NCBI RefSeq assembly: GCF_900184245.1
Contig: NZ_FXXB01000008.1
Coordinates: 1,054,001-1,118,000 of the forward strand
DNA length: 64,000 bases
Reading direction: 5' to 3'
Source of the DNA: Brachybacterium massiliense
GTDB taxonomy: Bacteria > Actinomycetota > Actinomycetes > Actinomycetales > Dermabacteraceae
Within the stretch, counting starts at the first letter, position 1, and the number at the start of each line of letters is the position of its first letter. This document shows positions 24,863-45,504 of the stretch, piece by piece. The translations under genes were made by a program, and so were the position numbers. A model generated the notes under the pieces. The model made no database searches, had not been told where the DNA came from, and worked only from the letters and a program-made list of their open reading frames with translations.

Positions 24863-26344
24863 TCAGTACGCGCCGGACGAGGAGAAGACGGCTCGCACCG
24901 TACGGAAGAGGATGATCATGTCCTGGGCGAAGGACCAGTTGTCCACGTAATACAGGTCCAGCCGCACCGTGTCCTCCCAGGAGAGGTCGCTGCGCCCGGA
25001 GACCTGCCACAGGCCCGTGATGCCCGGGCGCACGCTGTATCGCCGGTGCGCATCCTCGGAGTACCCGTCCACCTCCCGCGGCAGCGCGGGGCGCGGGCCC
25101 ACCAGGCTCATGTCCCCGCGCAGCACGTTCCACAGCTGCGGAAGCTCGTCGAGGGAGAAGCGGCGCATCACCTTCCCGGGGCGGGTGATGCGCGGGTCGT
25201 CACGCATCTTGAACATGACCGAGTTGCCGCGGTCCTGCTTGCTCTGCTCGTAGAGGGCCTTCAGGACGGCCTCGGCGTCGGGGACCATCGAGCGGAACTT
25301 CAGGAACTCGAACTTCTCGCCGTCCCGGCCCACGCGGTCCTGGCGGAAGATGATCGGCCCGCCGTCAGCGGCTTTGACCACGAGGGCGATACCCAGGAGC
25401 AGTGGGGAGAGGATCAGGAGCAGAGCGGTGCTCGCGATGACGTCGAAGGTGCGCTTGGTCCATTTCAGTGCCTGGCGCGCCCGGGGCAGGTCCACGTGCA
25501 CCAGCGGGAGGCCCGCGATCGGTCGCATCCGCACCCGGCTCGCGGCGATCTCGGCCAGTGCGGGCACCACGATGACCCGTACCTCCTTCTCCTCAAGCAT
25601 CCAGGCCACGCGGCGGAACTCCTCGGTGCTCGCGGTAGAGCCGGTGGCGAACAGCAGCACGCTGGGGCGCTCCCGGTCGACTACGTCGAGGAGATCGTTC
25701 TCGGCGCCGAGCACCGGGATGCCGAGCGTGGATGTGCCGTCGCTGCCCGTGGGCGTGATCGAGCCGACGATGTCATAGCCGAGCCACCTCTCGCGCGCGA
25801 AGGTGCGCGCTACGCCGTCGACATAGGCGGGCAGGCCCACGGCGATGACCCGGCGGCGCAGACGGCCACGGGACCGCGCGAGGTTCAGCATCCGGCGCTC
25901 GAGCAGACGCAGCAGCAGCAGCAGGCAGGGCCCGAGGATGAAGAAGATCAGGAAGTAGCCCCGAGAGAGGTCGAACTTCAGCAGGTAGTTGACCGCGCCG
26001 ATGAGGCTTGCCGCCGCGGCCGAGCCGTGGAGCACGTTGCGGAACATCTCGGGCCCGGAGGAGAGGCGACGTACGTCGTAGCCGCCGAACATCGCGATCG
26101 CGAGCACGCATCCGGCCCCCATGACCACGGCCGAATTGCCGACGTCCTCGCTGAGCCCCCACGAGGAGGACAGGAGCCACTGTCGCCCGAAGTACGCCGC
26201 GGCCCCCGCAGCCGTCAGCGCGACGAGGTCCAGGAGGATCATCCCGATGATGGAGGAGACGACGCGGCGCTGGTACCGCGGCCCTGCACCCGCTACGTGC
26301 TGAGAAGGGGGTGGAGCATCGAGGGTTTCACCCGTTTCGGCCAT
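24863..26344 (-). CDS. Polyprenyl-phosphate glycosyl-1-phosphate transferase (priming enzyme)
   Basis: A 493-residue WbaP/WcaJ-type protein that loads the first sugar phosphate onto undecaprenyl phosphate to begin repeat-unit synthesis. The N-terminal half has about four membrane helices and a CoA-binding-like domain. A fifth hydrophobic segment ([19 protein letters not shown]) precedes the C-terminal catalytic domain, with [28 protein letters not shown] and [11 protein letters not shown] motifs. ATG 26344 is chosen because GAGGGG lies 9 bases before it; ATG 26362, which overlaps the upstream stop, is an alternative. Confidence 0.93.
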
Positions 26345-27966: not shown

Positions 27967-29031
27967 ATGATCTCCAGCGTGCTGCTCCTGACTGAATCGC
28001 TCAACTCGAACTCTCTGGGCCGCACCTACTGCGTCTGGCGCCTCGCCACCGCTGCGGGCTGGGAGGTCGAGGTCGTCTCTGTGGAGGGCGGCGAGGTCTG
28101 GGCACCCCTGACAGGCACGGACTTCGCCGCGGCCTGCCGCGCCTCGACGCCCGCGCGACTTGCCGAGGAGCTCACCCGCCGCGCGCCCGATCTGCTCATC
28201 GCGTGCAAGCCGCTGCCGAGTTCCCTTGGCGTCGCCGAGACGCTCTCCGTACAGCTGGGCATCCCGCTGATGGTGGACATCGACGACCCGGACCTCGAAT
28301 ACCGACTCTCGCTCGGTCAGCCCGCGAAAATGCTGGCCAAGGCCGCGCTGCACCCGCGACGCGCTGCGGAGTACGCGCGGTTGCGCCGCCTGTCCAAGCG
28401 CACCCCGGCTCTCGTGAGCAACCCGTGGCTCGAATCGATCTACGGGGGAACGATCATGCCGCATGTCCGGGACGACACCGGCCCCGGGGCCGCACATACG
28501 AGCTCCGAGCCCGTGATCGGGTTCATCGGCTCGAACAAGCCGCACAAGGGCGTCCCTGAGCTGCGCGAGGCGGTGGCCCGCCTCGCCCCCCAGGGCTTCA
28601 CGCTCGCTGTCACCGACGATCCCCCGGAGGACGCCGCCCCGTGGGAGGACTGGACGGGGACCACCACGTTCGCCGAGGGTCAGAAGCTCGTGCGGAGCGT
28701 GGACATCGTGGTGATCCCCAGCCGTGATATACCGATGGCGCGCGGCCAGCTGCCGGCGAAGCTCATGGACGCGATGCTCGCGGGCCGAGCGGTGGTCGCG
28801 ACCGAGCTTCCCCCGCTCCCATGGGGGCTGGCCGGGACGGGACGGACCATCCCCGACTCCTCGGTAGACGCCCTCGAACGCGCCCTGAGCGAGCTCGCCG
28901 ATCCGCGGCTGCGCCAGCATCTCGGGGACGCCGCGCGAGAGCACGCCCTGGCCTCCTACACCGTCTCCTCGAACCTCAAGAAGTTCACCGCCGCCTGTAC
29001 GGCGGCCGTCACGAACGGAGGTGCCCTGTGA
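27967..29031 (+). CDS. Glycosyltransferase family protein (GT4-like)
   Basis: A 354-residue predicted glycosyltransferase. The C-terminal part resembles GT4 enzymes: VIGFIGSNKPHKGVPELREA, DIVVIPSRDIPMARGQLPAKLMDAMLAGRAVVA (nucleotide-sugar site). The N-terminal domain is diverged, with LLLTESLNSNSLGRTYCVWRL. ATG 27967 follows GAGGA, while an open frame back to 27742 looks non-coding. First of three coupled genes (GTGA overlaps) that end in a flippase, so it likely builds the exported oligosaccharide. Confidence 0.8.
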   Translation: MISSVLLLTESLNSNSLGRTYCVWRLATAAGWEVEVVSVEGGEVWAPLTGTDFAAACRASTPARLAEELTRRAPDLLIACKPLPSSLGVAETLSVQLGIPLMVDIDDPDLEYRLSLGQPAKMLAKAALHPRRAAEYARLRRLSKRTPALVSNPWLESIYGGTIMPHVRDDTGPGAAHTSSEPVIGFIGSNKPHKGVPELREAVARLAPQGFTLAVTDDPPEDAAPWEDWTGTTTFAEGQKLVRSVDIVVIPSRDIPMARGQLPAKLMDAMLAGRAVVATELPPLPWGLAGTGRTIPDSSVDALERALSELADPRLRQHLGDAAREHALASYTVSSNLKKFTAACTAAVTNGGAL

Positions 29032-30314
29032 CCTCTGCCCTGCATCGGATCGAACGGCTGATCCAGCGCACCCGCCACGCGCGGGACGAGCGCATCCGTG
29101 CCCGCTTCGCCCAGGCGGTGGAGGCTCCAGGTGCGGAGGCGTACCACGCGTTGCTTCCGCACTCGCTCTGCTTCGCCTCCCTCGAGCCCACCGCTGCCGC
29201 CTCAGCCGCAGTGCGCATCGTGCTGCCCGAGCTGAGCGAGGGTGCGATCTTCGCCGGTATCCGCACCGCGCTCGAGGTCGCCTCGGGCCTGGCTCGACGA
29301 CTGGGCCTTCCGCTGAGCGTGCTCGTGCTGCGCGGGGCGCCGCGCGGGGAGTCCGCGCAGCGCCTGATCTCGTGGCTGCGGGCCGAGCTGCCGGAGGCCG
29401 CGGGCGTGGAGCTGTCGATCGAGCCCGTCGAGTGGGCGATCAGCCGCCGGGTGAGCTCCGAGGACCTCTGGATCGCGACCCACTGGACCACCGCGCATCC
29501 CCTCGATGTCGCCTGCCGCCTGGGCGTGCTCGCGCCGCAGCGTGTGCTCTACCTGGTCCAGGACTACGAGCCCGGCTTCACCGCCTGGTCGAGTGAGTCC
29601 GCGATCGCTCAGGCCACCTACCACGCCGGTTTCGAGCTCCTGGTCAACTCCGTGCCGGTCCAGCGCCATCTCTCCACAGCCGACGGGATCTTCGTCCCGC
29701 AGAAGCGAGTGTTCCGACCTCAGCTGGACCTCGTGCGCCTCGCGCAGGGCCGCGCCGAGCGGGAGACGCGCACCCGCGCCGGACGCACCGTCGAGGTCCT
29801 CTTCTACGCCCGTCCGAACAAGCCGCGCAATCTCTTCCAGATCGGGCTCGCGGCACTCGAGCTCGCCTCCGCACGCGCGGCGGACGAGGGGATCGCGTTC
29901 ATCGTCTCCTCCGCTGGGGACGAGCATCCCATCCCCGTGCAGGGCCGGCTCTCCTCGATGCGCGTGCTCGGCAAGCTCGCGTGGGACGAGTACTTCGCCC
30001 AGCTGTCCCGCAGCGATGTGGTGCTGTCCCTGCAGATGAGCCCTCATCCCTCGCATCCCCCGCTCGACGCGGTGCTGAGCGGGGCGCACGCCGTGACCAA
30101 CGAGCTCGGCACCGCGCGCGACGGGCTCCACCCCGCGCTGCACGCCGTCGCCCCCGACCCGGTGGCACTGGCCGAGGCGATCCTCGCCGCAGCGCGTGAC
30201 GCCGTCGCCGGTTCCGCGGCCGCCGATGATCCGCGCGACCTCCTGCCCGCGCTCGGCGGTGAGCTCACAGAGGTCCTCGACACTCTCGCTGCAGAGATCG
30301 GGACGCCTTCGTGA
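29028..30314 (+). CDS. Glycosyltransferase, WsaF-like
   Basis: A 428-residue protein. The block VLYLVQDYEPGFTAWSS is characteristic of WsaF-type rhamnosyltransferases, and VEVLFYARPNKPRNLFQIG is the GT-B linker region. GTG 29028 overlaps the previous stop and follows GGAGG by 6 bases. The dTDP-rhamnose genes elsewhere in the locus fit a rhamnosyl transfer, though donor specificity is an inference. A GTGA overlap couples it to the flippase gene. Confidence 0.78.
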   Translation: MTSALHRIERLIQRTRHARDERIRARFAQAVEAPGAEAYHALLPHSLCFASLEPTAAASAAVRIVLPELSEGAIFAGIRTALEVASGLARRLGLPLSVLVLRGAPRGESAQRLISWLRAELPEAAGVELSIEPVEWAISRRVSSEDLWIATHWTTAHPLDVACRLGVLAPQRVLYLVQDYEPGFTAWSSESAIAQATYHAGFELLVNSVPVQRHLSTADGIFVPQKRVFRPQLDLVRLAQGRAERETRTRAGRTVEVLFYARPNKPRNLFQIGLAALELASARAADEGIAFIVSSAGDEHPIPVQGRLSSMRVLGKLAWDEYFAQLSRSDVVLSLQMSPHPSHPPLDAVLSGAHAVTNELGTARDGLHPALHAVAPDPVALAEAILAAARDAVAGSAAADDPRDLLPALGGELTEVLDTLAAEIGTPS

Positions 30315-31528
30315 GGACCCCCCGGGACCTGCTGCGGAACTCATGGTCACTGCTGCTGTTCCTGGTGATCCCAGGGCTCGGCGCCGTCACCCCGCTGCTG
30401 GTCTATCCGTCGATCACCTCGCAGTTCGGAGCGGACGGTTTTGCCGCTGTCGCGATCGGACTCTCCGTGGGAATGACTGTCAGCGCGATCTGCGAACTGG
30501 GCTGGGGGGTGCTCGGACCCCAACGCATCGCCCGCGAACGGCCGGAGCTGCACCTGCCGCTCGTGCGCTCCTCACTCGCGACCAAGACCCTGGCCCTCGT
30601 GCTCGGCGCCCCGATCGCGGTGCTCGTGGCCTGGTACACGGTGGAGATCCATCATCTGGCGGCAGCGCTCACAGCGCTCGGCGCTTCGCTCACGGCGCTG
30701 AACCCTGCGTGGTACCTCATAGGGCTGAACCGGCCGCTGTGGATCCTGTACTCGGACACGCTGCCGAAGATCCTCCTGAACCTGGCCGTGGCCGGGTCGC
30801 TGCTGGCGGGCGCCCCGCTGCTGGTCTACGGCGCCTCCACGATCCTGAGCTCCGTGATCCCGCTCGCGCTACTCTCTTTGCTCTCCCGCGCCTCGCTGGT
30901 GCCGCGTGGGCAGGAGGTGCGGGAGGGATTTCGGGTGATCGCGCAGCAGGGCCCGCTCACCATCGGCCGTGCGGTCTCGGTGGCATACACCTCGCTGCCG
31001 GTCACGATCACCGGGGTCCTCATGCCTGGCGCTGCCGCGCTGTTCGCCGGCACCGACCGCATCATGCGGATGGGACTCACGGTCCTCGCGGGCGTGCCCA
31101 GCCGCCTCCAGAGCTACATAGGCGTCGAGGACAAGGTCCTGCGCGATCAGCGGGTCACGCGTGTGCTCGCGATCAACCTCGGGCTCGGGGTGATCGCGGC
31201 GGGTGTCTTCATCGCGGCGCTCGGCCCCGCGATGAGCATCTTCTACACCGGGACGATCGACGCCCAGCTCCCACTGACCCTGGTGATGGGCGCCGTGGTG
31301 CTCGCTGTGTGCGTCTCCCGCGGCTACGGTTTGTGTCTGGTCGCGCGCGGGCTCGCCAATCGCACCGTGTTCGTCACCGGCTCTGCAGCGCTGACCGGCT
31401 GCTCACTCCTGTTCCTGCTGGTCCCCCAGCACGGCGCGGTGGGCGCGGCGATCGCGGTGCTCAGCGCCGAAGTGGTGGGCATCGTGGTGCAGATGCTCTT
31501 CGTGCACCGCGCCGGCGCACATCGCTGA
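30311..31528 (+). CDS. Polysaccharide flippase (Wzx/MATE-like membrane protein)
   Basis: A 405-residue integral membrane protein with about 12 hydrophobic segments from residue 13 (LLLFLVIPGLGAVTPLLVYP) to the end, the pattern of polysaccharide_synt family exporters of the MOP superfamily. It would flip undecaprenyl-linked repeat units outward for polymerisation by the Wzy-like protein at 36143-37711. GTG 30311 overlaps the upstream stop. It converges with the glycosyltransferase gene ending at 31626. Confidence 0.85.
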   Translation: MRTPRDLLRNSWSLLLFLVIPGLGAVTPLLVYPSITSQFGADGFAAVAIGLSVGMTVSAICELGWGVLGPQRIARERPELHLPLVRSSLATKTLALVLGAPIAVLVAWYTVEIHHLAAALTALGASLTALNPAWYLIGLNRPLWILYSDTLPKILLNLAVAGSLLAGAPLLVYGASTILSSVIPLALLSLLSRASLVPRGQEVREGFRVIAQQGPLTIGRAVSVAYTSLPVTITGVLMPGAAALFAGTDRIMRMGLTVLAGVPSRLQSYIGVEDKVLRDQRVTRVLAINLGLGVIAAGVFIAALGPAMSIFYTGTIDAQLPLTLVMGAVVLAVCVSRGYGLCLVARGLANRTVFVTGSAALTGCSLLFLLVPQHGAVGAAIAVLSAEVVGIVVQMLFVHRAGAHR

Positions 31529-31625: not shown

Positions 31626-32792
31626 TCAGCGCGTGCGCGCGGTGAGCTCCGCGACCATTCCCCGAGCGATCGTCCCCCAGTCGTGGCGGCGCGAGCGCTC
31701 GAGCGCTCGACGCGACTGCTTCGCGTACTCTGCCTCATCTGCGAAGGCGGCGACGAGCCTCTGGGCGATCTGCTCTGGAGCGATCTCGGGAAGGACCGCC
31801 CCGAAGCTGCCGTCCTCGACGAGATGAGGAAGCTCCCCGGTGGAGCTGACCAGGCACGGCAGCCCGTAGGAGAGCGCCTCGGGGATCACGAGCCCGTAGG
31901 ACTCGCGGTGAGCGGGCAGTGCGAGCATCGAGGCGCTCGCATAGAGATCGCTCAGCGTCGCCTTGTCCTGGACCAGTCCGTGCCGTGCGACCCACGGCTC
32001 GTCCCCGGGAACCTCCGCCTCCGCCGGGCCCACCACCCGCAGGGACAGCCCCTCGACGCTCTCGCGGGCGAGCCTCACGCCCTCGATCAGCTCGGGCAGA
32101 CCCTTGCGCACGGGATCCTTGCCCACGAAGAGCACGGTGCGCTCCGCGAAGCGTTGCGCGAGGAAGTCTTCACTGAGCTCGCCGATCCCGGGCAGGGTGG
32201 TCCCCGCGCCGACGATCACGACGTCCTCGGGCGCGACCCCGTAGTTCTGGACCAGATCGTCCCTGCCGGCGTGAGAGGCGCTGAACATCACCGCGGCCCG
32301 GCGGTAGAACTCGCCCTCGACAGCGACCTCCTGCTGGAACTGGCGGTCGCTCAGCGTCCAGCTCGGATCGTACCCGCGCACCATGTTCACCGTCGCGTCG
32401 ATGAATGAGGCGTAGGGGGTCCCGATCGGCGTGTACCAGGTACGCACATGCAGGAGCGCTTCGAGGTCGCCAGCGGCGCGGGCGAGCGTGTCCCGTCGAC
32501 GCGAGCGGGCACGGGCGATGAGCCGACCGTGCAGGTATTGGCGTTCCCAGGCCTGCCGGCCCGGGCGCAGGCTCACCGCCTTGATCCCGAGCCGCTCAAT
32601 CCGATGGGGGCGAGTGCTGATCTCCGTCACCTCCGCCTGGTGGACCTGCTGCATGCCGCGACGCAGGGAGAAGGGGACCCCCGAATGAATCATCGGGTCG
32701 TGGCAGTCCCCGTAGGTGACGTACCCCAGCCGGAGCGGGTCCTGGGCCGTCTCGGCGGGAGCGCGGAGCGCCGGCGGAACCGGATCGGTCAT
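31626..32792 (-). CDS. Glycosyltransferase, GT4 type
   Basis: A 388-residue enzyme. The C-terminal GT4 half has VLFVGKDPVRKGLPELIEGV, LRVVGPAEAEV and LALPAHRESYGLVIPEALSYG, with the catalytic-site Glu pair. The N-terminal half has YVTYGDCHDPMIHSGVPFS. ATG 32792 shares a base with the previous stop (TGATG). A much longer open frame upstream to 33704 is only a shadow of the GT9 gene. It is the last gene of a nine-gene coupled or closely spaced run beginning at 41180. Confidence 0.85.
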   Translation of the reverse strand: MTDPVPPALRAPAETAQDPLRLGYVTYGDCHDPMIHSGVPFSLRRGMQQVHQAEVTEISTRPHRIERLGIKAVSLRPGRQAWERQYLHGRLIARARSRRRDTLARAAGDLEALLHVRTWYTPIGTPYASFIDATVNMVRGYDPSWTLSDRQFQQEVAVEGEFYRRAAVMFSASHAGRDDLVQNYGVAPEDVVIVGAGTTLPGIGELSEDFLAQRFAERTVLFVGKDPVRKGLPELIEGVRLARESVEGLSLRVVGPAEAEVPGDEPWVARHGLVQDKATLSDLYASASMLALPAHRESYGLVIPEALSYGLPCLVSSTGELPHLVEDGSFGAVLPEIAPEQIAQRLVAAFADEAEYAKQSRRALERSRRHDWGTIARGMVAELTARTR

Positions 32793-34012
32793 CACTGCGG
32801 TGCCTCCTCGGCATCGATCAGGTCCAGGGCACCGGCGAGCACCGTCGATGCCGGGATCGCGGCGATGAGCGCGGTTCGGCGCGCATCGTCCAGCTCGGCG
32901 AATGACTGCTCCATGCGGCCCGGACGGATGATCACGGAGCCGCCGGCCGAGCGTACACCGAAGCGGTCCGGGCTGTTGGGGTGGTTCGGATCGTCCCCCT
33001 CGGGGAACACCGATACGACGGCGGTGGGCACGCCCAGCGCCGCCGCGATGTGCGCCGGGCCGCTGTCGCAACCGATCATGAGGTCGGCGCCGTCGAGCAG
33101 ATCCGGCAGATCCCTGAGGGGGCTCCTGCCCGCCTCGCTGCGGACGCGCTCCGGGTCGATGGCCACGAGGGGAGGGTGAACCGCGGCGTCCTCCGGTCCG
33201 CCGATCAGCACGACGTCGAGGGCGGTGCGGTCCAGCAGCAGGTGGATCAGCTCCGCCCAACGCTCCCGGGGCCAGCGCCGGAAAGCGTCGTGCGCACCGG
33301 TGTGCAGGGCCACGAAGCCTGCCAGCGAGCGGTGCTGCGGCATCCCCAGCAGATCCCGCACGGCGCGAGCATCCCGGGGCATCCGTAGCCCGATCGTCTC
33401 TCCCAGGAGTGCCAGGCGCTCGGCCTCGTGGGCGTGCCCTCGCACGTCCTCGGCGCGCAGGGCGATCGCGGCCCGGTCGCGCTGCTCCTTGCGGGTGGCC
33501 TGGGGCTGGAGCATGGGGTCGTGACCGGCGATCGTTGCGCCGGTGCCCACGGCGTAGGCGAGGCAGTTCTGCCCCCGGTCGGTGTCCCAGCGCGGGAGCA
33601 CCACCAGGTCGGTGCCCCCGGCACGGCGCCGTCCCGCACGGCGCGTGCGGAGCTGGCCGAGGGCAGAGATCGCGAGGACCTTCCCCGCACCGCCGTGGGG
33701 CCACGGCGTGTGGTGGCTGGCCCAGACCTCCTCGGAGACCACCTCGATGCCACGCAGGCGCGCCAGCAGTCCGCGGTGCGCCGGCGGTGCGACGAGCCGC
33801 ACGGTGCCGATCCGCTCGTCGTGCGCGAGCGCGCTGAGCAGCGGGAAGGTGAGGATCCAGTCCCCGATCCCGTCGAACCGCACCACATCGACCCGCAGGG
33901 GCCCTCCGTGCTGTTCGACGAGTTCTGTGAGGGTCACGGGCGTTTCCGCCGCGCCGCGATGCATCCGCAGGCGGGCGGTGTCGATCAGCGCGAGCCGTCG
34001 ATCATCGAGCAC
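32792..34012 (-). CDS. Glycosyltransferase family 9 (heptosyltransferase-like)
   Basis: A 406-residue GT-B enzyme of the ADP-heptose:LPS heptosyltransferase family. RFDGIGDWILTFPLLSAL is the N-terminal glycine motif, VALHTGAHDAFRRWPRERWAEL resembles the acceptor/donor loop, and LMIGCDSGPAHIAAALGVPTA is the family's most typical block. GTG 34012 follows GAGGAGG by 6 bases and overlaps the end of the heptose kinase gene. Gene order (heptose isomerase/nucleotidyltransferase, kinase, GT9) strongly suggests that it transfers a heptose into the surface polymer. Confidence 0.88.
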   Translation of the reverse strand: MLDDRRLALIDTARLRMHRGAAETPVTLTELVEQHGGPLRVDVVRFDGIGDWILTFPLLSALAHDERIGTVRLVAPPAHRGLLARLRGIEVVSEEVWASHHTPWPHGGAGKVLAISALGQLRTRRAGRRRAGGTDLVVLPRWDTDRGQNCLAYAVGTGATIAGHDPMLQPQATRKEQRDRAAIALRAEDVRGHAHEAERLALLGETIGLRMPRDARAVRDLLGMPQHRSLAGFVALHTGAHDAFRRWPRERWAELIHLLLDRTALDVVLIGGPEDAAVHPPLVAIDPERVRSEAGRSPLRDLPDLLDGADLMIGCDSGPAHIAAALGVPTAVVSVFPEGDDPNHPNSPDRFGVRSAGGSVIIRPGRMEQSFAELDDARRTALIAAIPASTVLAGALDLIDAEEAPQ

Positions 34013-34910
34013 CCTCGACCTCCTCGCGGGAGACTGCGTAGGTGCCGCTGCGACTCACAGCGATTGCCGCGGCGCGGGTCGCCCAGCGCGCCGCTTCGAC
34101 GATCTCCGCACCGTCGGCGAGAGCGACGGCAAGGGCGGCTGTGACCGTGTCCCCCGCACCGGTGACGTCCGCGACCTCGATCACATCGGAGGCGATGCGG
34201 GTCTGACGGCCGCTCGCCTCGTGGATCAGCATCCCCTCGGGGCCGAGCGTCACGATCACGTTCCCTCGCGTCGCCTCGGAGAGTGCGCGGGCGGCGGCAG
34301 AGGGGTCCGTGTGCCCGGTTGAATCACGTGCTTCGCCGTGGTTGGGAGTCACGGCACTCGCGCCCTCGAAGCGCGAGAAGTCGCGGCACTTGGAGTCCAC
34401 CACCACGGGGATGCCCGCTTCCCGTGCGGTGCGGATCGATTCGCGGGCCACCTCGGCGGAGACAGCGGCCTTCTGGTAGTCGGAGACGACGGCGCAGCGC
34501 GCCCCGGCGATGCTCTCGCGGAAGGCAGTGATGAGCTCGGCGTGGTCCGTCGGTCCCACCTCGTCGCTCTCGTGATCCAGGCGCATGATCTGGTGGCTGC
34601 CGGCCTGAAAACGGTTCTTGAGCACCGTGGGATAGACGGCGGATCCCACGCAGCGATCCAGGACCCCGGAATCGCGCATCAGCCGGCGGCACGCGTCCCC
34701 GGCGGGATCCTGACCGAGCAGCCCCACGAGAGATACCTCGGCACCCAGGAGACCCGCCATGTTCATGGCGGTGTTCGCCGCCCCTCCGAGCACTTCGGTG
34801 GTGGTGGGGTTCAGGAGCACTGGGACGGGCGCCTCGGGACTCAGCCGGTTGGCGGCTCCGCGGCTGAACACGTCGAGCATGATGTCCCCGACCACGACAC
34901 CCACGCTCAT
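34002..34910 (-). CDS. PfkB family kinase, heptose-7-phosphate kinase-like (RfaE1 domain)
   Basis: A 302-residue ribokinase-fold enzyme like the kinase half of HldE, which makes D-glycero-beta-D-manno-heptose 1,7-bisphosphate. It has VVVGDIMLDVFSRGAANRLSPEAPVPVL, which matches the typical RfaE1 start, GGAANTAMNMAGLLGAEV, PNHGEA, and the catalytic VTGAGDTVTAALAVAL near residues 248-263. ATG 34910 overlaps the stop of the isomerase/nucleotidyltransferase gene. In Gram-negative bacteria kinase and nucleotidyltransferase are often one protein (HldE); here the nucleotidyltransferase is fused to the isomerase instead. Confidence 0.88.
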   Translation of the reverse strand: MSVGVVVGDIMLDVFSRGAANRLSPEAPVPVLLNPTTTEVLGGAANTAMNMAGLLGAEVSLVGLLGQDPAGDACRRLMRDSGVLDRCVGSAVYPTVLKNRFQAGSHQIMRLDHESDEVGPTDHAELITAFRESIAGARCAVVSDYQKAAVSAEVARESIRTAREAGIPVVVDSKCRDFSRFEGASAVTPNHGEARDSTGHTDPSAAARALSEATRGNVIVTLGPEGMLIHEASGRQTRIASDVIEVADVTGAGDTVTAALAVALADGAEIVEAARWATRAAAIAVSRSGTYAVSREEVEGAR

Positions 34911-36004
34911 GACCGGCTCTTCTCGACCTGCGAGGTGGTGGAGAACCCCTCGACCCGTTCTATGTACATGATGCGACCGCCGCCCGCGACGACCGTCTCC
35001 TCCTCGAGGAGCGGAGCGCCGGCGTATTCAGCCCCCTTCGCGTGAATGGTCGGGGTGAGCAGGGCGAGGAGACGGCGGGGGTCCTGATCCTCCATGACCA
35101 CGACGTGGTCGACGGCCGGCAGGCGCGAGAGGTCCGCGATGCGCTCCTGCTCCCCCCGGATGGGCCGCTCGGGGCCCTTGCTGAGAGCGCGCACCGAGGC
35201 GTCGGAGTTGATCAGCAGCACGAGCCGGTCCGCGCTCCGCCGTGCCTCGGAGATCGAGGCGGCATGACCGGAGTGGAGGAGATCGAAGACGCCGTTGGTG
35301 GTGGCGAGGCTCTGCCCGGTCGCTTCGATCCATTCGCGGAAGGCGGGCAGGTCGGTCTCGGCCAGGTGGAAGGGGAAGGGGCAGGCAGAGGTGTCCCATT
35401 CGAGGTCCGTGACCACCTCACGCTCCGCGATCTGCGCGATCTCGTGGAGCACGAGATCGTGGAGCTCCTGGACCCGGGCGGTCTCCGGCAGGTCCACTCC
35501 GATCGTGTGCCGGGCGCCCAGGCCGTCGTGCTGGCCCACGAGTCCGAGGGTGGTCGCTCCGGCCTGGTGCGCGGCGGCGAAGGCCTTGCGCACGTTCGCG
35601 CTGGTGCCGCTCGTGGAGAGGCCGATGACGAGGTCGCCCGGGCCGGCGAGCGCTGTGACCTGGCGGGAGAAGACGTCTTCGTAGCCGTAGTCATTCGCGA
35701 TCGCGGTGAGCGCGGAGGTGTCGGTGGTCAAGGAGATCACCGGGAGCGGGCGACGGTCCTTCTTGAGGCGCCCGGTGAACTCGGCCGCAAAGTGTGTGGC
35801 GCAGGCGGCGCTGCCGCCGTTGCCGAACACGTAGGCCCTGCCCCCCGAGGTGAGCACCTGCCCGAGGAGCAGCCCGGCGCGGGCGATGCTCTCGCTGTCT
35901 CTCTCCAGGAGCGAGGCCCCGTAGCGGAGCCGGCGCGCCGCGTTCGCGGCCAGCGCGCGGGCACGATCGACGCCCGAGGCGTCGAAGGAGGCGGTTTTGG
36001 GCAC
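34907..36004 (-). CDS. Fusion of phosphoheptose isomerase (GmhA) and heptose-1-phosphate nucleotidyltransferase (RfaE2)
   Basis: A 365-residue two-domain protein. Residues about 15-195 form a SIS-type sedoheptulose-7-phosphate isomerase with FGNGGSAACATHFAAEF, AIANDYGYEDVFSRQV, LSTSGTSANV and QELHDLVLHEIAQ, which cover the GmhA active-site blocks. Residues about 230-350 form a cytidylyltransferase-like domain with TTNGVFDLLHSGHAAS (HxGH motif) and ERIADLSRLPAVDHVVV. GTG 36004 follows GAGG by 5 bases. With the kinase it supplies the first, second and last steps to an NDP-heptose; the phosphatase step (GmhB) is not encoded in the window. Fusion of these two domains is unusual. Confidence 0.88.
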   Translation of the reverse strand: MPKTASFDASGVDRARALAANAARRLRYGASLLERDSESIARAGLLLGQVLTSGGRAYVFGNGGSAACATHFAAEFTGRLKKDRRPLPVISLTTDTSALTAIANDYGYEDVFSRQVTALAGPGDLVIGLSTSGTSANVRKAFAAAHQAGATTLGLVGQHDGLGARHTIGVDLPETARVQELHDLVLHEIAQIAEREVVTDLEWDTSACPFPFHLAETDLPAFREWIEATGQSLATTNGVFDLLHSGHAASISEARRSADRLVLLINSDASVRALSKGPERPIRGEQERIADLSRLPAVDHVVVMEDQDPRRLLALLTPTIHAKGAEYAGAPLLEEETVVAGGGRIMYIERVEGFSTTSQVEKSRS

Positions 36005-36142
36005 TGTTTCCTCTTCTCTCACTGTCGCTCTCCGGCGACGTCGTACATCTGGGCACCGATGCCACGGTCGTGGCCTGCGGCGGGGGCGCCTCCACGGCGC
36101 TCGGGTCGGCTCGAGATGGAGCGATCGGGGACGCTTAGAAAC

Positions 36143-37711
36143 TCAGCGGCGGGGGCTTTCACCGCGCTTCCGTCCTGCTGCTGCGGCTTTCGCGGGCGCT
36201 GTGGGGACAGGCTTGCCACCGAAGATCTCCTCGAGCTCTTCAGCCCAGGAGATGGGCTCCTCGCCGGGCGCTGCCCTCCGGCGCCGGCGCCCCTGCTCGC
36301 GCACAGGATGTCCGGTGGCACCCTCCGCTGCGCTGGGCGTGCCCGGGGCGGGGGTCACAGCCTGCACGGGATCGGCCTCGCTCGCGGTGGGCTCCGCGTG
36401 CGATGGGTGTTCCGCTCCTCCGCGCTCGGGATACGGCTCGGCGCCGTCAGGGCGGCTCGCACGGTGGCGCTCGGCGACACGGCGCCGATTCATCTCTGCA
36501 GCGGTGAGGCCAACGGCGAGGATCAGCATGCTCTGGCTCATGATGTGATCCAGTACGTCGAAACTCAGCGCCATGGTGATCATCAGGACCCCGAGGGATC
36601 TGGCAGTGGAGTCTCCGTAGATGAGCACGAGCACGAGCACACCGAGCAGCATCAGTAGGCCCAGCAGGCCCTCCTGTGCCATCGTCGCGACGAACTGGTT
36701 GTCGAAGAAGTAGAACGAGGTGCTGTGCCGGTCCACGACACCGCTGTCGAAGATGTACTGCAGATCCGTTCCCCACCCGAACAGCACGTGTATCAGATCC
36801 GCGCGGAACAGGTCGGGGAAGGAGGAGAGCACGGCCGTGCGGTGCTCGTAGGAGTCGCTGGTCTCGAACTCGCCGCCGAATCCCAGCAGCCCGCGCAGGG
36901 TGTCGTACCCCACCCGCCAGCCGATGATCCCGGCAAGGGCCCCCACCCCGAACAGCCGCGCCACGAGATTCTTGCGATAACCGATCAGCACCTGGAAGAC
37001 GATCACCCCCGCCGCGGCGAGGACCGCGCTGCGAGTACCGCTCATGAGCACTCCCGCTGTCGTGAGCAACGGGATCAGCCAATAGACGAGCTTCCCGGTG
37101 CGCACCGCGACCCCGCCCCCGATCGCGCCGGCCGCGGCCAGGAAGAACGAGAACGGGATCGGGTGGGAGAAGGAGGTCATCGGCCGCCCCGCGAGTGTCG
37201 GCAAGATCGTGTTCACGCGGTCGGAGATGTCGTTCGTCCCGTCCGACATCGGCCACAGGCCCGGAAGCCCGGCCCACACCTCGCCCATCGCGTAGGCCAG
37301 GTGGAGCACCACGATCACAGCGAGCCCCTCGGTGAAGCGAGGAAGGTCGCGATAGCGCATGCGGGAGGCCGTGGCGGCGAGCAGCACGAGCACAGCGAGA
37401 GTCAGCACACGGATCGGTCCGGTGATGCCGCTGAGCAGGTTCGCGAGGAAGATCAGTCCTAAGAGACCGATGCCGAGCACGAGCACGAGGGTGCCCTCGG
37501 AGTGATGATGCCCATGGTTCCAGGCCACCAGGAGCGCTCCGCCCGCAGCCGCCAGGCCGATCGCGATCGCCATCGACGAGGCACCGTTGAGAGGGATCAC
37601 GGTGAGCCAGCCGATCGCGATCACCAGTGCTCTCGAGACGACCACGTTCGGGCGCGAGAACACGATCCACCACGAGGAGACGAACGCTGCCGCAGCGAAG
37701 GCGGGAATCAC
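36143..37711 (-). CDS. O-antigen ligase/polymerase-like membrane protein (Wzy-like)
   Basis: A 522-residue integral membrane protein with about 11 hydrophobic segments in residues 1-415. A large external loop (about 255-320) includes FGWGTDLQYIFDSG and HSTSFYFFDNQFV, typical of Wzy_C/O-antigen ligase proteins. The C-terminal 105 residues form a hydrophilic Glu/Pro/Ala/Arg-rich tail, longer than usual. GTG 37711 follows GGAGG by 4 bases and overlaps the preceding stop. It likely joins flipped repeat units into the polymer. Confidence 0.82.
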   Translation of the reverse strand: MIPAFAAAAFVSSWWIVFSRPNVVVSRALVIAIGWLTVIPLNGASSMAIAIGLAAAGGALLVAWNHGHHHSEGTLVLVLGIGLLGLIFLANLLSGITGPIRVLTLAVLVLLAATASRMRYRDLPRFTEGLAVIVVLHLAYAMGEVWAGLPGLWPMSDGTNDISDRVNTILPTLAGRPMTSFSHPIPFSFFLAAAGAIGGGVAVRTGKLVYWLIPLLTTAGVLMSGTRSAVLAAAGVIVFQVLIGYRKNLVARLFGVGALAGIIGWRVGYDTLRGLLGFGGEFETSDSYEHRTAVLSSFPDLFRADLIHVLFGWGTDLQYIFDSGVVDRHSTSFYFFDNQFVATMAQEGLLGLLMLLGVLVLVLIYGDSTARSLGVLMITMALSFDVLDHIMSQSMLILAVGLTAAEMNRRRVAERHRASRPDGAEPYPERGGAEHPSHAEPTASEADPVQAVTPAPGTPSAAEGATGHPVREQGRRRRRAAPGEEPISWAEELEEIFGGKPVPTAPAKAAAAGRKRGESPRR

Positions 37712-38700
37712 AGGACCTCCTCCCCATGCTCGGGACGACGGGTATCCGTCCTATTCGTGACAGTGCGGCGCCCGGTTCCGCGCCGGCGCTCCCGCACGAT
37801 GTACCGGCACATGTCCCGGCTGCCTTTACGGGCGCGTGTGGTCCACGCTTCCAGGAATCCGCGAAACCCTGGCCGCGCATCCGGTCGCAGTGCACGCAGC
37901 TGGCTCGGCCGGAGCGCGAGAGCGTCCACCACCATCCCCGGCCGGCGGCGCAGCGGCGCATCACGCAACCGCAGCAGCCACGCCGTCACCGACTGATCCT
38001 CGGCGCTGAGCCGCTTGACCCATTCCGCGTAGGCGGGCCCGGGTGCGTCGGGGATCGAGACGTGCTGCCCGAGAGGGCGCAGGAAAGGTGCGGCACTCAG
38101 CTCGGCTCCCAGCTGCAGCGCGCGCTCGCGCAGTCGGCACCCTGCCGCCTCGCCCAGTCGACCCCGCACCCTCTGCCGGATCCCGGCGAGCGTGCCCTCG
38201 TGCCGGTGGCCGCTGCGGATCTCGTTGAGAGCCTCGAGAACAGCCGAGTCCTCGTAGCAGGGAGTATCGAAAGCGAGGGCGCCGACTGCGGTTCGCTCAC
38301 GGTACTGCCAGAGTCGTTCGAAGGTCAGCGCCGCATCCTGCAGAAAACCCAGCCAGAAGCGGTGCACATCAATCGTGCATGGCCAGAAATGGTGGAGGAT
38401 CGTGACCGAATGTTCCTCGAAGGGGAGCACAGCGTCAGGATGATCACGCAACCTCCAGCCGTCCTTTGCGAGGAGCTCCACGAGCTGGTCCACATCCTCG
38501 GGGTGCAACAGGATGTCCAGGTCGAAGGACTGCTTCGGATCGCGTACGCCCTGGGCTGTGAAGAACGGCCCTTTGATGAACAGCACCCGCAGGCCCGCAC
38601 GCCGTGCCCGATCCGCGACGATCGCCGCGACCAGGGTGATCGCCGGAACATAGCCGAGCTCGAGCACCTCTGGCGAGTGCCCGGTATGCAGGGCGCTCAT
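37708..38700 (-). CDS. Nucleotidyltransferase family protein (NTP_transf_5-like)
   Basis: A 330-residue protein. LRVLFIKGPFFTAQGVRDPKQSFDLDILLHPEDVDQLVELL shows the nucleotidyltransferase D-x-D-I-L motif in the form found in the NTP_transf_5 family. No membrane segment is present, and the C-terminus is Arg-rich. ATG 38700 overlaps the stop of the PqqD-like gene and relies on coupling. Proteins of this family commonly occur beside a small PqqD protein and an HprK-related kinase in polysaccharide loci; all three are present here. The substrate is unknown. Confidence 0.75.
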   Translation of the reverse strand: MSALHTGHSPEVLELGYVPAITLVAAIVADRARRAGLRVLFIKGPFFTAQGVRDPKQSFDLDILLHPEDVDQLVELLAKDGWRLRDHPDAVLPFEEHSVTILHHFWPCTIDVHRFWLGFLQDAALTFERLWQYRERTAVGALAFDTPCYEDSAVLEALNEIRSGHRHEGTLAGIRQRVRGRLGEAAGCRLRERALQLGAELSAAPFLRPLGQHVSIPDAPGPAYAEWVKRLSAEDQSVTAWLLRLRDAPLRRRPGMVVDALALRPSQLRALRPDARPGFRGFLEAWTTRARKGSRDMCRYIVRERRRGTGRRTVTNRTDTRRPEHGEEVL

Positions 38701-39059
38701 CGCGGGGTCCGAGCGCCGCTGCGGGTGCCGGGGACTCCGCCGCCCGCCGGGCCGTCGCCGGGCAGTCCTCTGCCGGGCATCGCTCGGTCCACAAGACGCA
38801 GCCTGGAGAGCTGGTCGAGGATCAGGGGGACCTGCTCGTCGAGCACCGCCCGAGCAGCCCCCGTGGTGTCCACGAGTTCCTCGACGATGTTCGCAGTCGC
38901 GAGAGGACCCGCGGCGAGCAGCTGCCACACCAGGTGCGCGCCACCCTCGATCACGTGCGGAAGGGGATCGGGATCATCCAACGGCAGCGCGAACGACGCC
39001 TCGGGCTCGACGACGTGCGCGACCCCGCTCCGGATGCTCCACACCTCCTCACGCACCAT
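38697..39059 (-). CDS. PqqD family small protein
   Basis: A 120-residue protein whose residues about 5-92 match the PqqD winged-helix pattern, including VIEGGAHLVWQLLAAGPLATANIVEELV and LDQLSRLRLVDR. The last 25 residues are Gly/Pro/Arg-rich. ATG 39059 follows GAGG by 6 bases and overlaps the phosphatase stop by 11 bases. PqqD proteins bind peptides as chaperones for modifying enzymes, but in polysaccharide loci their role is unclear. The C-terminus of the HprK-like protein at 21837-23048 has a similar domain. Confidence 0.7.
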   Translation of the reverse strand: MVREEVWSIRSGVAHVVEPEASFALPLDDPDPLPHVIEGGAHLVWQLLAAGPLATANIVEELVDTTGAARAVLDEQVPLILDQLSRLRLVDRAMPGRGLPGDGPAGGGVPGTRSGARTPR

Positions 39060-39621
39060 CCAGGACCTCGACGATCCCGCGGATCAGCACGTCGATGTGG
39101 CGCGCTGCGCGCTCATGCACCTCCGGGTCGGCACCGATGGGGTCCACGACGTCGTCCTCGGGGGTCAGCTCGGCCCGATACCTCTGTTGCACGCAACGGC
39201 GCACGGCGGCGGGAATCTCTCCCGCCTGGACCGGGCCGCCGCCCTCGACGACCAGGGGAAGCACCGTGGCGAACTCCGCGAGCGTGAAGGTGCGCAGCAT
39301 CGCCGAAGGGAAGCGCCGCACGAGCTCATCCCGCTGGCCGACGGTCATGGTCAGCACGAGCGAGGAAGCATCGATCTGCGAGCGTTCGAGCTGTTGCCCC
39401 ACAGCGGTGGTGGGGTCCCCTCCGAACCTCCGCGACCACTGGGCGGAGGAGGAATCCATCGGAGCACCGACCACAGCGTCGAGACCAGCGCTCTGCACTT
39501 CGATTCCATGCACGCTGTCGAGGCGGCTGCGGAGCAGCTGCTCTCCGAGCGGCGATCGGCAGATGTTGCCGGTGCAGACCACGAGGATGCCGAACGCCTC
39601 GATGCCAGTGCTGCCGTTCAT
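39049..39621 (-). CDS. Low-molecular-weight protein-tyrosine phosphatase
   Basis: A 190-residue cytoplasmic phosphatase. The P-loop VCTGNICRSPLGEQLL carries the nucleophile Cys16 and Arg22, and the general-acid Asp is likely in the DDVVDPIG region near residue 158, as in the family's DP motif. ATG 39621 overlaps the kinase stop (ATGA). Wzb-type phosphatases dephosphorylate the tyrosine autokinase that controls polymer length, and the immediate kinase/phosphatase pairing supports that role. Confidence 0.92.
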   Translation of the reverse strand: MNGSTGIEAFGILVVCTGNICRSPLGEQLLRSRLDSVHGIEVQSAGLDAVVGAPMDSSSAQWSRRFGGDPTTAVGQQLERSQIDASSLVLTMTVGQRDELVRRFPSAMLRTFTLAEFATVLPLVVEGGGPVQAGEIPAAVRRCVQQRYRAELTPEDDVVDPIGADPEVHERAARHIDVLIRGIVEVLDGA

Positions 39622-41180
39622 GAGTCCCCGCCCCCGGCGTCCGCCGCGCGTGACCGTCGTCCTCCATGAGAGGGCTGGGGCGAGGACTTCTCTGAGCCGA
39701 CGGCTGTGCTCGCGGGGCTCCCCTCCGCAGCCGCACGCTGCGACCCGGTATCGGGGAACGATCTGGCCGTTCCCTTCGCGCTCGTCGTCTCATCAGCAGA
39801 GCGGCGATAGTAGTTGCGGTAGCGATAGCCGTAACCATCTGCCTGAGCTCCGCGCATGGGCACCCGGTTGATGATGACCCCCAGCGAGCGCCCCTTGACC
39901 TTGCGCAGATTCGCGAGGGACTGGCCCAGCTCGTCGAAGGTGGTCTTGTTCGCCGACGCCACGATGATCGCGCCGCTCGTCTTCGCGGTCAGCAGCGCCG
40001 CATCCGTCACCGGCAGGAGCGGAGGGGTGTCGATGAGGACGATCGCGTGCTGGGAGATCTCGTCGAGCAGCTTGCCCATCGTCTTCGAGGAGAGGAGCTC
40101 GCTGGGGTTGGGTGGGACCGAGCCCGCGGCCAGCACGGCGAGGTTCCCGGTGTCCCCCCACGGCTGAAGGACATCGCGGAGTTCCGCCGTCCCCGCCAGG
40201 ACGTCCGTCAGCCCGACGCTGCCCACGATCCCGAAGGTCTCGGCGACGACAGGTCGTCGCAGATCGCCGTCGATCACGACAACCTGCTCACCGGCCTGCG
40301 CGATCGTGTTGGCCAGGTTGGCGATCACGAAGGACTTCCCCTCACCGGGGATCGAGCTGGTCACCGTGATCACTCGAGGCGGATTGTCCACATCCATGAA
40401 CTGCAGGTTGGTGCGGATGCGCCGCATCGATTCGGCAACCGCGTACTCAGAGATGTCATCGCTCTCACGGTCGTTCCCGCCCTTCGAGGTCACGATGCGG
40501 TCGTTGCCGACACCGCCCGTCTTCCGCCGCGGAATGGTGCCGATCACGGCGACGCCGGTCGTGGACTCGACATGTTCGACAGCGCGGATACGGCGATCGA
40601 ACTGGTGCCAGACGATCGCGTACGCGATACCCATCACGGCGCCGACCAGGATCCCACCCAGCACGTAGAGTCTGATATCCGGCGAGGACGGCGAGGTGGG
40701 GATCTGTGCAGAATCCAGGGACTGGAACTGGACGATGGTCCCGGCACCCTCGATCTCGAGAGACTGCTCGCCTATCGCAACGATCCACGCCTCGGCGATA
40801 TCGCGGGCCTGCTCCGGTGTCGAAGCCGTCACCGAGACTTTGATGTTCGAGGTCTCCGGAGGATTGCTGACGGTGGTGTTCGCGCGGAGAGCGTCGACAG
40901 ATTCCTCAAGACCGAGATTTTCCTTGACCCGTTCCGCGACGGAGCGGGAGTTCGCGACATCGAGGTACGAGGTCACGCGCGACTTCGCAAAGCTGTCACC
41001 TGTGAGCGCGCTTCCGAGGTCGCTCGAGGAGCCGGCGGTGAGCATCCCACTCGCATCCGACGTGTACTGCTTGGGTTGGATCGCCGCGAGGCCGAAGCCG
41101 AGCAGGCCAGAGACCGCCGTGATAGCGAAGATGGTGAGCCACCGCGCCCGGAAGATCTTCCAATAATCGACTACTCGCAC
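39618..41180 (-). CDS. Polysaccharide co-polymerase / tyrosine autokinase (Wzz-BY-kinase type)
   Basis: A 520-residue membrane protein. Residues about 5-200 are a Wzz-like chain-length domain with helices near 14-34 and 172-193. The cytoplasmic BY-kinase domain follows, with Walker A SIPGEGKSFVIA, Walker A' VVIDGDLRRP and Walker B IVLIDTPPLLPV. A tyrosine cluster (YGYRYRNYY) near residues 438-446 is the likely autophosphorylation site; the tail is Ser/Ala-rich. GTG 41180 follows GGGAG by 9 bases. Unlike Firmicutes systems, membrane and kinase parts are in one chain, as is usual for actinobacteria. It starts the nine-gene minus-strand run. Confidence 0.92.
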   Translation of the reverse strand: MRVVDYWKIFRARWLTIFAITAVSGLLGFGLAAIQPKQYTSDASGMLTAGSSSDLGSALTGDSFAKSRVTSYLDVANSRSVAERVKENLGLEESVDALRANTTVSNPPETSNIKVSVTASTPEQARDIAEAWIVAIGEQSLEIEGAGTIVQFQSLDSAQIPTSPSSPDIRLYVLGGILVGAVMGIAYAIVWHQFDRRIRAVEHVESTTGVAVIGTIPRRKTGGVGNDRIVTSKGGNDRESDDISEYAVAESMRRIRTNLQFMDVDNPPRVITVTSSIPGEGKSFVIANLANTIAQAGEQVVVIDGDLRRPVVAETFGIVGSVGLTDVLAGTAELRDVLQPWGDTGNLAVLAAGSVPPNPSELLSSKTMGKLLDEISQHAIVLIDTPPLLPVTDAALLTAKTSGAIIVASANKTTFDELGQSLANLRKVKGRSLGVIINRVPMRGAQADGYGYRYRNYYRRSADETTSAKGTARSFPDTGSQRAAAEGSPASTAVGSEKSSPQPSHGGRRSRAADAGGGDS

Positions 41181-41406: not shown

Positions 41407-42822
41407 TCAGAGGCCGAGATACGCACGAAGAGCAACGATCTGATCACGCGGCGCGAAACCCGTGGCACGGATCCTGGAGAGGTCCAGGACCGAGCTGCGG
41501 GGCCGTGGCGAGATCGTCCCGTCGCCCTCCGCCCGTTCCTGCGCCGCGTAGAACTCGGCGGTGCTCGTCGCGGAGACCCGCTCGGGGTCATGGCCGGTCG
41601 CCGCGAAGACGTTGCGCGCGATGCCCGCCCAGCTGAGCGGCTCACCCTCCGTGGAGAGGTGGTAGACCCCCGGCTCTGGGCGCACACGCAGCAGGTGCTC
41701 TGTAACCGCCGCGAGGTCATCGGCGAAGGTGAGCCGGCCGATCTGATCGTCCACGACCGCCGGGTCTACCCCTCGCTCAGCGAGGGAGGCCATCGTGCGC
41801 ACGAAGTTCTTCCCCTCGCCCACCACCCAGCTGGTCCGAACGATGTAGTGATCCTGCCAGGTGGCGACCAGCGCGTCCCCCGCAGCTTTGGTCTGGCCAT
41901 ACACGCCAAGGGGAGCGACCGACTCCCTCTCGGTATGCTCGGCGATGGTCCCGTCGTATACGTAGTCGCTGGAGAAGTGCACGAGCACGGCCCGCTGCTC
42001 CCGCGCGGCCTGCGCCAGCCTCTGTGCACCAAACGCATTGGTCGCCCACGCCGAACGGCGTCCCTCCGGCGTCTCCGCGAGGTCCACCGCGGTGTACGCC
42101 GCGGCGTTGACGATCGTGCCGTAGGGAGAGAAGTCGAAGTCGGCGACGGAGTCGGGATCGGCGATCTCCAGCTGCTCGCGACCCACCCCGTCGACGTCCC
42201 CCCGCGACGCCCAGCGCTCCATGAGCGCCCGACCCACCTGCCCGTTCGCACCCACCACAAGGGTGCGGCGCGGCGCGACGGGGGTGACCTCCGCGAGACG
42301 CGGATGGGCGAGGTCCTTCGCGGAGAGCTCTGCCCGTTCGAGCGGGATCGGCCAGGGGACGGCCGCGGTCTCGTCGGCCAGGTTCAGGAAGGTGTACTCG
42401 GACTGGGCAGTCTCGGTCCAGTGGGCATCCACGAGATAGCTGTACGCGGCCGGCGCTTCGACGGTCTGGAACGCATTGCCCACCCCACGCGGGACATAAA
42501 CCGCGACCTCCGGCGTGATCTCACACCAGAAGGCGGTGCCGAAAGCAGGCCCCTGGCGCAAGTCCACCCACGCCCCGAACACCTTCCCGGTCGCCACGGA
42601 GACGAACTTGTTCCACGGCTCGGCGTGGATCCCGCGCGTGACACCGACTGCCTGGTTGAAGGACACGTTGTTCTGCACCGGGCCAAGGTCCGGCAGCCCG
42701 GCGGCGATCATCTTCTCCCGTTGCCAGTTCTCCTTGAACCAGCCACGTGAGTCCCCGTGCACGGGAAGGTCCACGACGAGCAGGCCGGGGATCGGCGTGC
42801 TGCGGATTGCGAGCTCAGACAA
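41407..42822 (-). CDS. Bifunctional dTDP-4-dehydrorhamnose 3,5-epimerase / reductase (RmlC-RmlD fusion)
   Basis: A 471-residue fusion performing the last two steps of dTDP-L-rhamnose synthesis. Residues about 5-180 are the cupin epimerase (DSRGWFKENW, GVTRGIHAEPWNKFVSV, YVPRGVGNAFQ). Residues about 195-471 are the NADPH-dependent reductase (VVGANGQVGRAL, HFSSDYVYDG, YGQTKAAGD). I start at TTG 42822, because GGAGGAG lies exactly 6 bases upstream and abuts the ATG at 42828; GTG 42846 is a further alternative. It lies 75 bases after rmlB on the same strand. Such fusions are common in actinobacteria. Confidence 0.92.
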   Translation of the reverse strand: MSELAIRSTPIPGLLVVDLPVHGDSRGWFKENWQREKMIAAGLPDLGPVQNNVSFNQAVGVTRGIHAEPWNKFVSVATGKVFGAWVDLRQGPAFGTAFWCEITPEVAVYVPRGVGNAFQTVEAPAAYSYLVDAHWTETAQSEYTFLNLADETAAVPWPIPLERAELSAKDLAHPRLAEVTPVAPRRTLVVGANGQVGRALMERWASRGDVDGVGREQLEIADPDSVADFDFSPYGTIVNAAAYTAVDLAETPEGRRSAWATNAFGAQRLAQAAREQRAVLVHFSSDYVYDGTIAEHTERESVAPLGVYGQTKAAGDALVATWQDHYIVRTSWVVGEGKNFVRTMASLAERGVDPAVVDDQIGRLTFADDLAAVTEHLLRVRPEPGVYHLSTEGEPLSWAGIARNVFAATGHDPERVSATSTAEFYAAQERAEGDGTISPRPRSSVLDLSRIRATGFAPRDQIVALRAYLGL

Positions 42823-42897
42823 TTGCATCTCCTCCGAGGGATTCACGGTGTCGACGGGGGACGGGCGGAGGCATCGGCCGCCCCTCCGGCAGGGCGA

Positions 42898-45504
<2,607 letters not shown>

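Follow-up and report, generated by a model that had tools for sequence, protein, structure and literature searches.

The immune receptor ALPK1 recognises nucleoside diphosphate heptoses (NDP-heptoses) as ligands, which makes it of interest to know which bacteria without lipopolysaccharide (LPS) produce them. The actinobacterial capacity is already in print, and tridomain NDP-heptose synthetases were reportedly described in actinobacteria by Tang et al. in 2022. Here we analyse a 64,000-nucleotide stretch of the Brachybacterium massiliense genome (contig NZ_FXXB01000008.1, positions 1,054,001 to 1,118,000; hereafter the window) containing an operon in which a sedoheptulose-7-phosphate isomerase (GmhA) domain is fused to a heptose-1-phosphate nucleotidyltransferase domain. 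Two commentaries on work by Tang et al. (Science 2024) distinguish, in their accessible text, three types of nucleotidyltransferase: the monofunctional enzyme, a kinase/nucleotidyltransferase and an isomerase/kinase/nucleotidyltransferase (PMC11461863, PMC11573728). The fusion, which joins an isomerase to a nucleotidyltransferase without a kinase, fits none of the three types listed there and adds a domain order to that scheme. No fusion of this kind was found in the literature searched, a scope that took in few subscription papers.

The described systems share different parts of this arrangement. HldE with a separate GmhA is expected to provide the same three activities from homologous domains; in the window, by contrast, the isomerase rather than the kinase is the fusion partner of the nucleotidyltransferase, and the kinase is a protein of its own. 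The actinobacterial tridomain synthetases (L070 and L044 among our loci; the type is named in the available part of PMC11573728) resemble the fusion in carrying an N-terminal isomerase and a C-terminal nucleotidyltransferase on one chain, whereas the fusion has no kinase between the two and is accompanied by a separate, overlapping kinase that is nearer to Gram-negative HldE1, although this proximity is not decisive. Burkholderia pseudomallei, for which the portion of PMC10948575 at hand gives two monofunctional enzymes, likewise has a stand-alone kinase, and sequence and fold comparisons both single out its HldC (5xf2) as the nearest nucleotidyltransferase of solved structure; unlike the nucleotidyltransferase of the window, HldC is not fused to GmhA. 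The GmhA/GmhB/HddA system of Mycobacterium tuberculosis is an actinobacterial pathway for heptose that also includes a fused GmhA, GmhA and GmhB being said in the accessible text of PMC7705670 to be fused in strain CDC1551. That system belongs to the GDP-α-heptose branch (PMC7705670), whereas the PfkB kinase and RfaE-II transferase of the window point to the β branch.

The operon consists of the following genes:
34907–36022, minus strand: fusion of GmhA (residues about 37–205) with an RfaE-II/HldC-type heptose-1-phosphate nucleotidyltransferase (residues about 232–369), 371 amino acids, assigned from profiles, structure and alignment
34002–34910, minus strand: kinase of the PfkB/RfaE domain I type, assigned from profile matches and alignment
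32792–34012, minus strand: GT9-family (heptosyltransferase-like) glycosyltransferase, 406 amino acids, assigned from profile matches, with ADP-heptose as its putative donor
31626–32795, minus strand: GT4-like glycosyltransferase, the last gene of the overlapping run, assigned from profile matches

The fusion is read from a GTG codon at 36022, and an alternative GTG at 36004 would yield 365 amino acids. By coordinates, with starts as predicted, the fusion overlaps the kinase gene by 4 bp, the kinase the GT9 gene by 11 bp and the GT9 the GT4 gene by 4 bp. Over residues 1–350 of 371, the third-position guanine-cytosine (GC) content of the fusion frame ranges from 0.84 to 0.98 in sliding windows. 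Because it stays high across the linker, the fusion is one coding frame and a single gene. A frameshift or chance fusion is ruled out by this continuous coding bias together with the same domain order in four other genomes. The fusion and the operon are thus confirmed as real, and the initial annotation, which had described a GmhA–nucleotidyltransferase fusion, an RfaE1-like kinase and a GT9 transferase in overlapping frames, was right about both the domains and the overlaps.

The domain assignments agree across sequence and structure comparisons. All Pfam matches are above their cut-offs, with 79 bits for SIS_2 and 44.8 bits for CTP_transf_like in the fusion, 129.2 bits for PfkB in the kinase and 62.1 bits for Glyco_transf_9 in the GT9 protein. 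Among sequences in the PDB, the isomerase half is related to structures of GmhA, with 1tk9 as the best match (E = 3.2e-41), the transferase half to the cytidylyltransferase 5x9q/5xf2 (E = 1.4e-21), the second of these entries bearing the title HldC of B. pseudomallei, and the kinase most closely to the heptose-7-phosphate kinase 4e84 (E = 4.5e-40). An AlphaFold model built from five fusions reached a mean predicted local distance difference test (pLDDT) score of 79.7, and Foldseek matched its first half to GmhA (1tk9, E = 6.2e-14) and its second half to B. pseudomallei HldC (5xf2, E = 8.6e-12). With a predicted template modelling (pTM) score of 0.51, the model does not fix the relative placement of the two domains.

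Catalytic residues were compared in alignments of 144 GmhA, 72 nucleotidyltransferase and 70 kinase rows. The zinc ligands of B. pseudomallei GmhA, given as H64, E68, Q175 and H183 in the accessible part of PMC5705639, correspond to H77, E81, Q185 and H193 of the fusion, which are identical in 144, 143, 143 and 144 of the 144 rows, respectively. The transferase half retains HxGH (250–253), K282/G283, R286/P287, K329 and the STT motif, and the kinase retains R110, D112, D172, GAGD (251–254) and the RxSPEAP stretch. In the (F/L)xxGxSTT motif, the fifth residue is Phe in the fusion and Arg in 28 of the 69 alignment rows that are ungapped there. According to the available text of the two commentaries, Arg at this position marks the use of CTP or UTP (PMC11573728, PMC11461863); Phe in its place favours ATP.

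From these comparisons we propose a pathway that is likely correct as a whole. The N-terminal half of the fusion would convert sedoheptulose 7-phosphate to heptose 7-phosphate, and the separate PfkB kinase would add a 1-β-phosphate, a PfkB rather than a GHMP kinase pointing to the β branch. The 7-phosphate would be removed by a phosphatase not recognisable as GmhB. Transfer of a nucleotide, presumably AMP, would fall to the fusion's C-terminal half, and the GT9 enzyme would use the NDP-heptose product, probably for a surface polymer. Because no 6-epimerase was found, the heptose residue would stay in the D,D configuration. The product is most likely ADP-D-glycero-β-D-manno-heptose for a surface polysaccharide. 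The operon probably works, as a version of the ADP-heptose pathway in which the domains are paired in an uncommon way and the phosphatase step is unaccounted for. A more far-reaching proposal, which we put forward tentatively and doubt on balance, is that the isomerase/nucleotidyltransferase didomain with its lone kinase constitutes a fourth NDP-heptose synthetase architecture that runs without GmhB in this lineage. Either an unrelated phosphatase would act, or the transferase would accept heptose 1,7-bisphosphate and lead to an ADP-heptose 7-phosphate polymer; the isomerase, with Cys at position 74, would be uncoupled between its active sites.

We searched for the didomain beyond the window, with up to five candidates scored per genome in overlapping samples of the order, class and phylum. 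The order sample (396 genomes) has full-length fusions in 4, the class sample (394) in 2 and the phylum sample (396, searched at E ≤ 1e-58) in 1, each count including the window's own genome; the phylum search gave two further matches to the GmhA half only. Five genomes carry the fusion in all, namely that of the window (G000), G516, and G211, G233 and G159, which belong to one genus and account for three of its six genomes. The pairing is unusual, as had been supposed: it is outside the three types of the commentaries and was found full-length in five genomes. A lone kinase lies within the same gene run as the didomain in all five. GmhB adjoins the fusion in G211, G159 and G516 but not in G233 or the window, and a GT9 gene is near the fusion in the window, G211 and G516, with no match in the 17 kb around the fusions of G233 and G159. 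The gene order in G516 is GT9, fusion, GmhB and kinase, followed downstream by GT4- and GT2-type genes. G211, G233 and G159 each hold a second GmhA and nucleotidyltransferase set, which is not a didomain match.

A contig scan with an alignment (A1), dominated by GmhA genes, gave at least 592 stretches with 554 relatives, and among the 80 of these that were compared, none had GmhA and nucleotidyltransferase parts in one open reading frame (ORF) by tblastn. Of the 80, the 11 loci matched over the greatest width include 10 where hldE precedes a separate gmhA; the eleventh, L137, has kinase and GmhA matches only. Five ordinary actinobacterial loci (L072 and L194–L197, the latter four from genomes picked for having the two parts in close proximity) have GmhA and HldE as separate neighbours; a GmhB-like gene and GT9 genes are nearby, in an order that differs between loci. 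Tridomain genes are present on plasmid pFRL3 of Streptomyces sp. FR1 (L070) and in G103 (L044). Plasmids offered two places covering 80% of the fusion query, H3 and H5, the former with separate GmhA and HldE genes; two places at 79% coverage proved to be a tridomain gene (H1) and an hldE accompanied by a separate SIS gene (H4). Phages had no match reaching 80% coverage, and viral contigs gave one GmhA-type match.

The window's own genome has a second SIS_2 match at C3:771621-771995 (L002), which scores 44.4 bits, above the Pfam cut-off, and is 28% identical to the fusion isomerase over fusion residues 41–159. Only one other genome of the genus, G012, has matches at E ≤ 1e-25: on the minus strand of L061:6891-11290 it carries a 630-residue ORF with a C-terminal GmhA and an 836-residue ORF that combines HldE domains with a long extension. 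Near these two ORFs, the GmhB profile has a match of 215.5 bits.

We then asked whether the didomain might be a trimmed actinobacterial tridomain synthetase whose kinase was moved out or replaced, an origin that would be compatible with the proposed pathway. Trees were built from the fetched loci with the row numbers given above, after removal of duplicate loci, of three stretches from the own genome, of rows with less than 75% query coverage or less than 50 bits, and of identical rows; the nucleotidyltransferase tree had 140 columns and long branches, and the GmhA tree, of the quick kind, was weak. Besides the existence of the tridomain genes L070 and L044, such an origin is suggested by the nucleotidyltransferase tree, in which the fusions of the window and of the G211 genus (three) form a weak group (87/79) surrounded by HldE and tridomain rows of actinobacteria; the G516 fusion, against it, is placed apart with Gram-negative rows. 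In the kinase tree, a 99/91 branch sets off a Gram-negative side that includes all five partner kinases, and the window kinase scores 271.7 bits against rfaE_dom_I, compared with 141.4 bits for the HldE of L072, both of which argue against trimming. Constraining the window kinase to group with 28 actinobacterial rows was nevertheless not rejected by the approximately unbiased (AU) test (p-AU 0.18), nor was a single origin for all five fusions (p-AU 0.369 for the transferases and 0.388 for the kinases). The trees leave the origin of the didomain open, and we regard trimming of a tridomain enzyme as doubtful.

Several observations weigh against the proposed pathway. The fusion stays under the equivalog cut-offs of the NCBIfam models gmhA (TIGR00441; 146.3 bits against 209.45) and rfaE_dom_II (TIGR02199; 129.5 against 181.5), as does the kinase for rfaE_dom_I (TIGR02198; cut-off 345). 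Near the GmhA active site, Cys74 replaces the channel Asp (D61 in B. pseudomallei) in a column with D in 106, E in 27, I in 6, Q in 4 and C in 1 of 144 rows, and Thr76 stands where 134 of 144 rows have Gln. In B. pseudomallei GmhA, the D61A variant kept 6% of the activity and lost the half-site effect, according to the accessible text of PMC5705639. The transferase has V245 in place of a Cys found in 71 of 72 rows and Arg instead of F/L as the first residue of the (F/L)xxGxSTT motif, and the kinase has S173 in place of a Pro found in 68 of 70 rows. Branches of the window proteins are long, at 1.95 against a median of 0.18 for the nucleotidyltransferase, 1.32 against 0.33 for the kinase and 0.99 against 0.21 for GmhA. 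The Glyco_transf_9 match, with a cut-off of 22 bits, covers only residues 232–336 of the 406, and the protein reaches at most 51.3 bits with NCBIfam heptosyltransferase models, below their cut-offs. To these points is added the GmhB gap described below. As for the NCBIfam scores, the ordinary GmhA/HldE pair of L072 is also below the cut-offs (163.6 bits for gmhA, 180.0 for rfaE_dom_II and 141.4 for rfaE_dom_I), and two other scanned fusions, L058 (182.6 bits) and L193 (160.4), are under that of TIGR00441. Because these fusions and the L072 GmhA miss it as well, the TIGR00441 cut-off discriminates poorly here. By sequence, the homology of the fusion and the kinase to gmhA, rfaE_dom_II and rfaE_dom_I is clear, although below the equivalog cut-offs.

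The initial annotation had noted that neither GmhB nor the epimerase HldD is encoded in the window; this is borne out, and profiles find neither in the rest of the genome, an assembly of 8 contigs and 3.87 Mb rated 100% complete and 4.05% contaminated. With the GmhB profile NF006506, the best match in the genome had 29.9 bits and covered only the last part of the profile. Its cut-off of 178 bits was not used as a test because the GmhB-like proteins beside other fusions also miss it (103, 113 and 138 bits in L058, L060 and L193). A second profile (A2), built from three aligned GmhB-like proteins of actinobacteria, gave a best match of 37.7 bits over positions 97–150 of 165. That match, C3:252987, was rejected as GmhB, being a HAD-IA hydrolase with phosphoglycolate phosphatase models next. 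In a control on 15 genomes, A2 found a match of at least 95 bits in 11, the exceptions being G000, G233, G172 and G107; two of the three A2 rows come from the tested genomes G211 and G159, and excluding both leaves 9 of 13. G233, G172 and G107 have GmhA and nucleotidyltransferase genes and no GmhB-profile match above 32 bits. In G233, which besides the fusion has a second set on another contig, there is still no GmhB match, and in G172 (L065) and G107 (L066), of the same genus as G211, GmhA adjoins HldE. The absence of GmhB is that of a profile match and not proof, and it could mean that an unrecognised phosphatase acts, that the 7-phosphate remains or that the path is broken. HldD was not found in the genome either, the best TIGR02197 score being 110.3 bits against a cut-off of 274.6 in a search without an actinobacterial HldD as positive control. 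This best match is GalE, which exceeds the GalE cut-off (319 against 262.3 bits), and the second best is the RmlB of the window. A D,D-heptose nucleotide, as anticipated in the initial annotation, would thus be expected if the path runs.

The missing GmhB, the long branches and Cys at the position where D61A left little activity (PMC5705639, in the part available) would also fit an operon that is decaying or incomplete, stopping at heptose 1,7-bisphosphate, with genes that are relics or nearly inactive. We consider this unlikely, since three intact, overlapping ORFs with a coding-type GC pattern retain the zinc ligands and core motifs, and since G233, G172 and G107 also combine GmhA and nucleotidyltransferase genes with no GmhB match. 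Moreover, loss of gmhB has only a partial effect in Escherichia coli and Klebsiella pneumoniae, ascribed in the accessible text of PMC9302095 to a redundant activity. Given this partial redundancy, a heptose pathway without GmhB is not absurd. Least probable, and by some distance improbable, is that the isomerase makes another C7 sugar phosphate, as in the branch where HygP starts ADP-altro-heptose synthesis from sedoheptulose 7-phosphate (PMC10948575, in the text at hand), or that the nucleotidyltransferase uses another sugar phosphate, giving a related but different polymer sugar: the unusual residues near the GmhA site would allow it, but the nucleotidyltransferase fold matches HldC and the best profiles are phosphoheptose isomerase, rfaE_dom_II and rfaE_dom_I, which, in a comparison that did not extend to HygP, lead families with other functions by a wide margin, DiaA excepted (90 against 146–154 bits).

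Within the preferred reading of a working ADP-heptose pathway, the chemistry is known and the gene arrangement is new. The interest is modest, though greater because a recognisable GmhB is missing more than once: G000, G233, G172 and G107 are genomes in which the alternative heptose-bisphosphate phosphatase suspected in E. coli and K. pneumoniae could be sought. The initial annotation had further argued that heptose production in actinobacteria matters because of ALPK1. The link to ALPK1 stands as a property of the product class taken from the literature, and nothing here shows the organism meeting a vertebrate host; the novelty was overstated. Production by actinobacteria is not news, as tridomain synthetases and the M. 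tuberculosis GmhA are already in print, and genes resembling a half of the fusion are frequent, with a match to either half at E ≤ 1e-45 in 97 of 394 class genomes, mostly to the GmhA half and counted without individual checks.

The operon is embedded in a gene region that is a Wzy-type surface polysaccharide cluster, with these further genes:
24863–26242, minus strand: sugar transferase of the undecaprenyl-phosphate type (Bac_transf with CoA_binding_3), which likely starts the polymer repeat
29028–30314, plus strand: WsaF-like glycosyltransferase (PF22772, PF21374), WsaF being a rhamnosyltransferase of S-layer glycans
30311–31528, plus strand: putative flippase, from position and a hydrophobic N-terminus, without a Pfam match
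36143–37663, minus strand: Wzy_C protein of the O-antigen ligase/polymerase family by Pfam, directly upstream of the operon
39049–39621: low-molecular-weight phosphatase, paired with the autokinase
39618–41180, minus strand: Wzz/bacterial tyrosine autokinase, from profile matches
41407–42846, minus strand: RmlC–RmlD fusion in a single ORF, from profile matches
42898–43932, minus strand: RmlB, above the NCBIfam cut-off
44155–45504, plus strand: UDP-glucose/GDP-mannose dehydrogenase, from profile matches
46385–47800, minus strand: phosphoglucomutase/phosphomannomutase, from profile matches
47862–48725, minus strand: RmlA, above the NCBIfam cut-off

The polysaccharide probably contains rhamnose. 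Within the genus, a gene related to the autokinase is present in 21 of 38 genomes at E ≤ 1e-60, whereas the fusion occurs in 1 of 38 (and in 1 of the 47 genomes of the family), the own genome being counted each time. The heptose operon is therefore an uncommon accessory part. Inside the cluster, an NTP_transf_5 protein (an uncharacterised nucleotidyltransferase) is encoded at 37708–39059 on the minus strand, beside an ORF of 120 amino acids without a family. On the plus strand, 52483–54435 and 54656–56611 are tandem paralogues with Acyl_transf_3 and SGNH domains, likely O-acyltransferases acting on polysaccharide or the cell wall.

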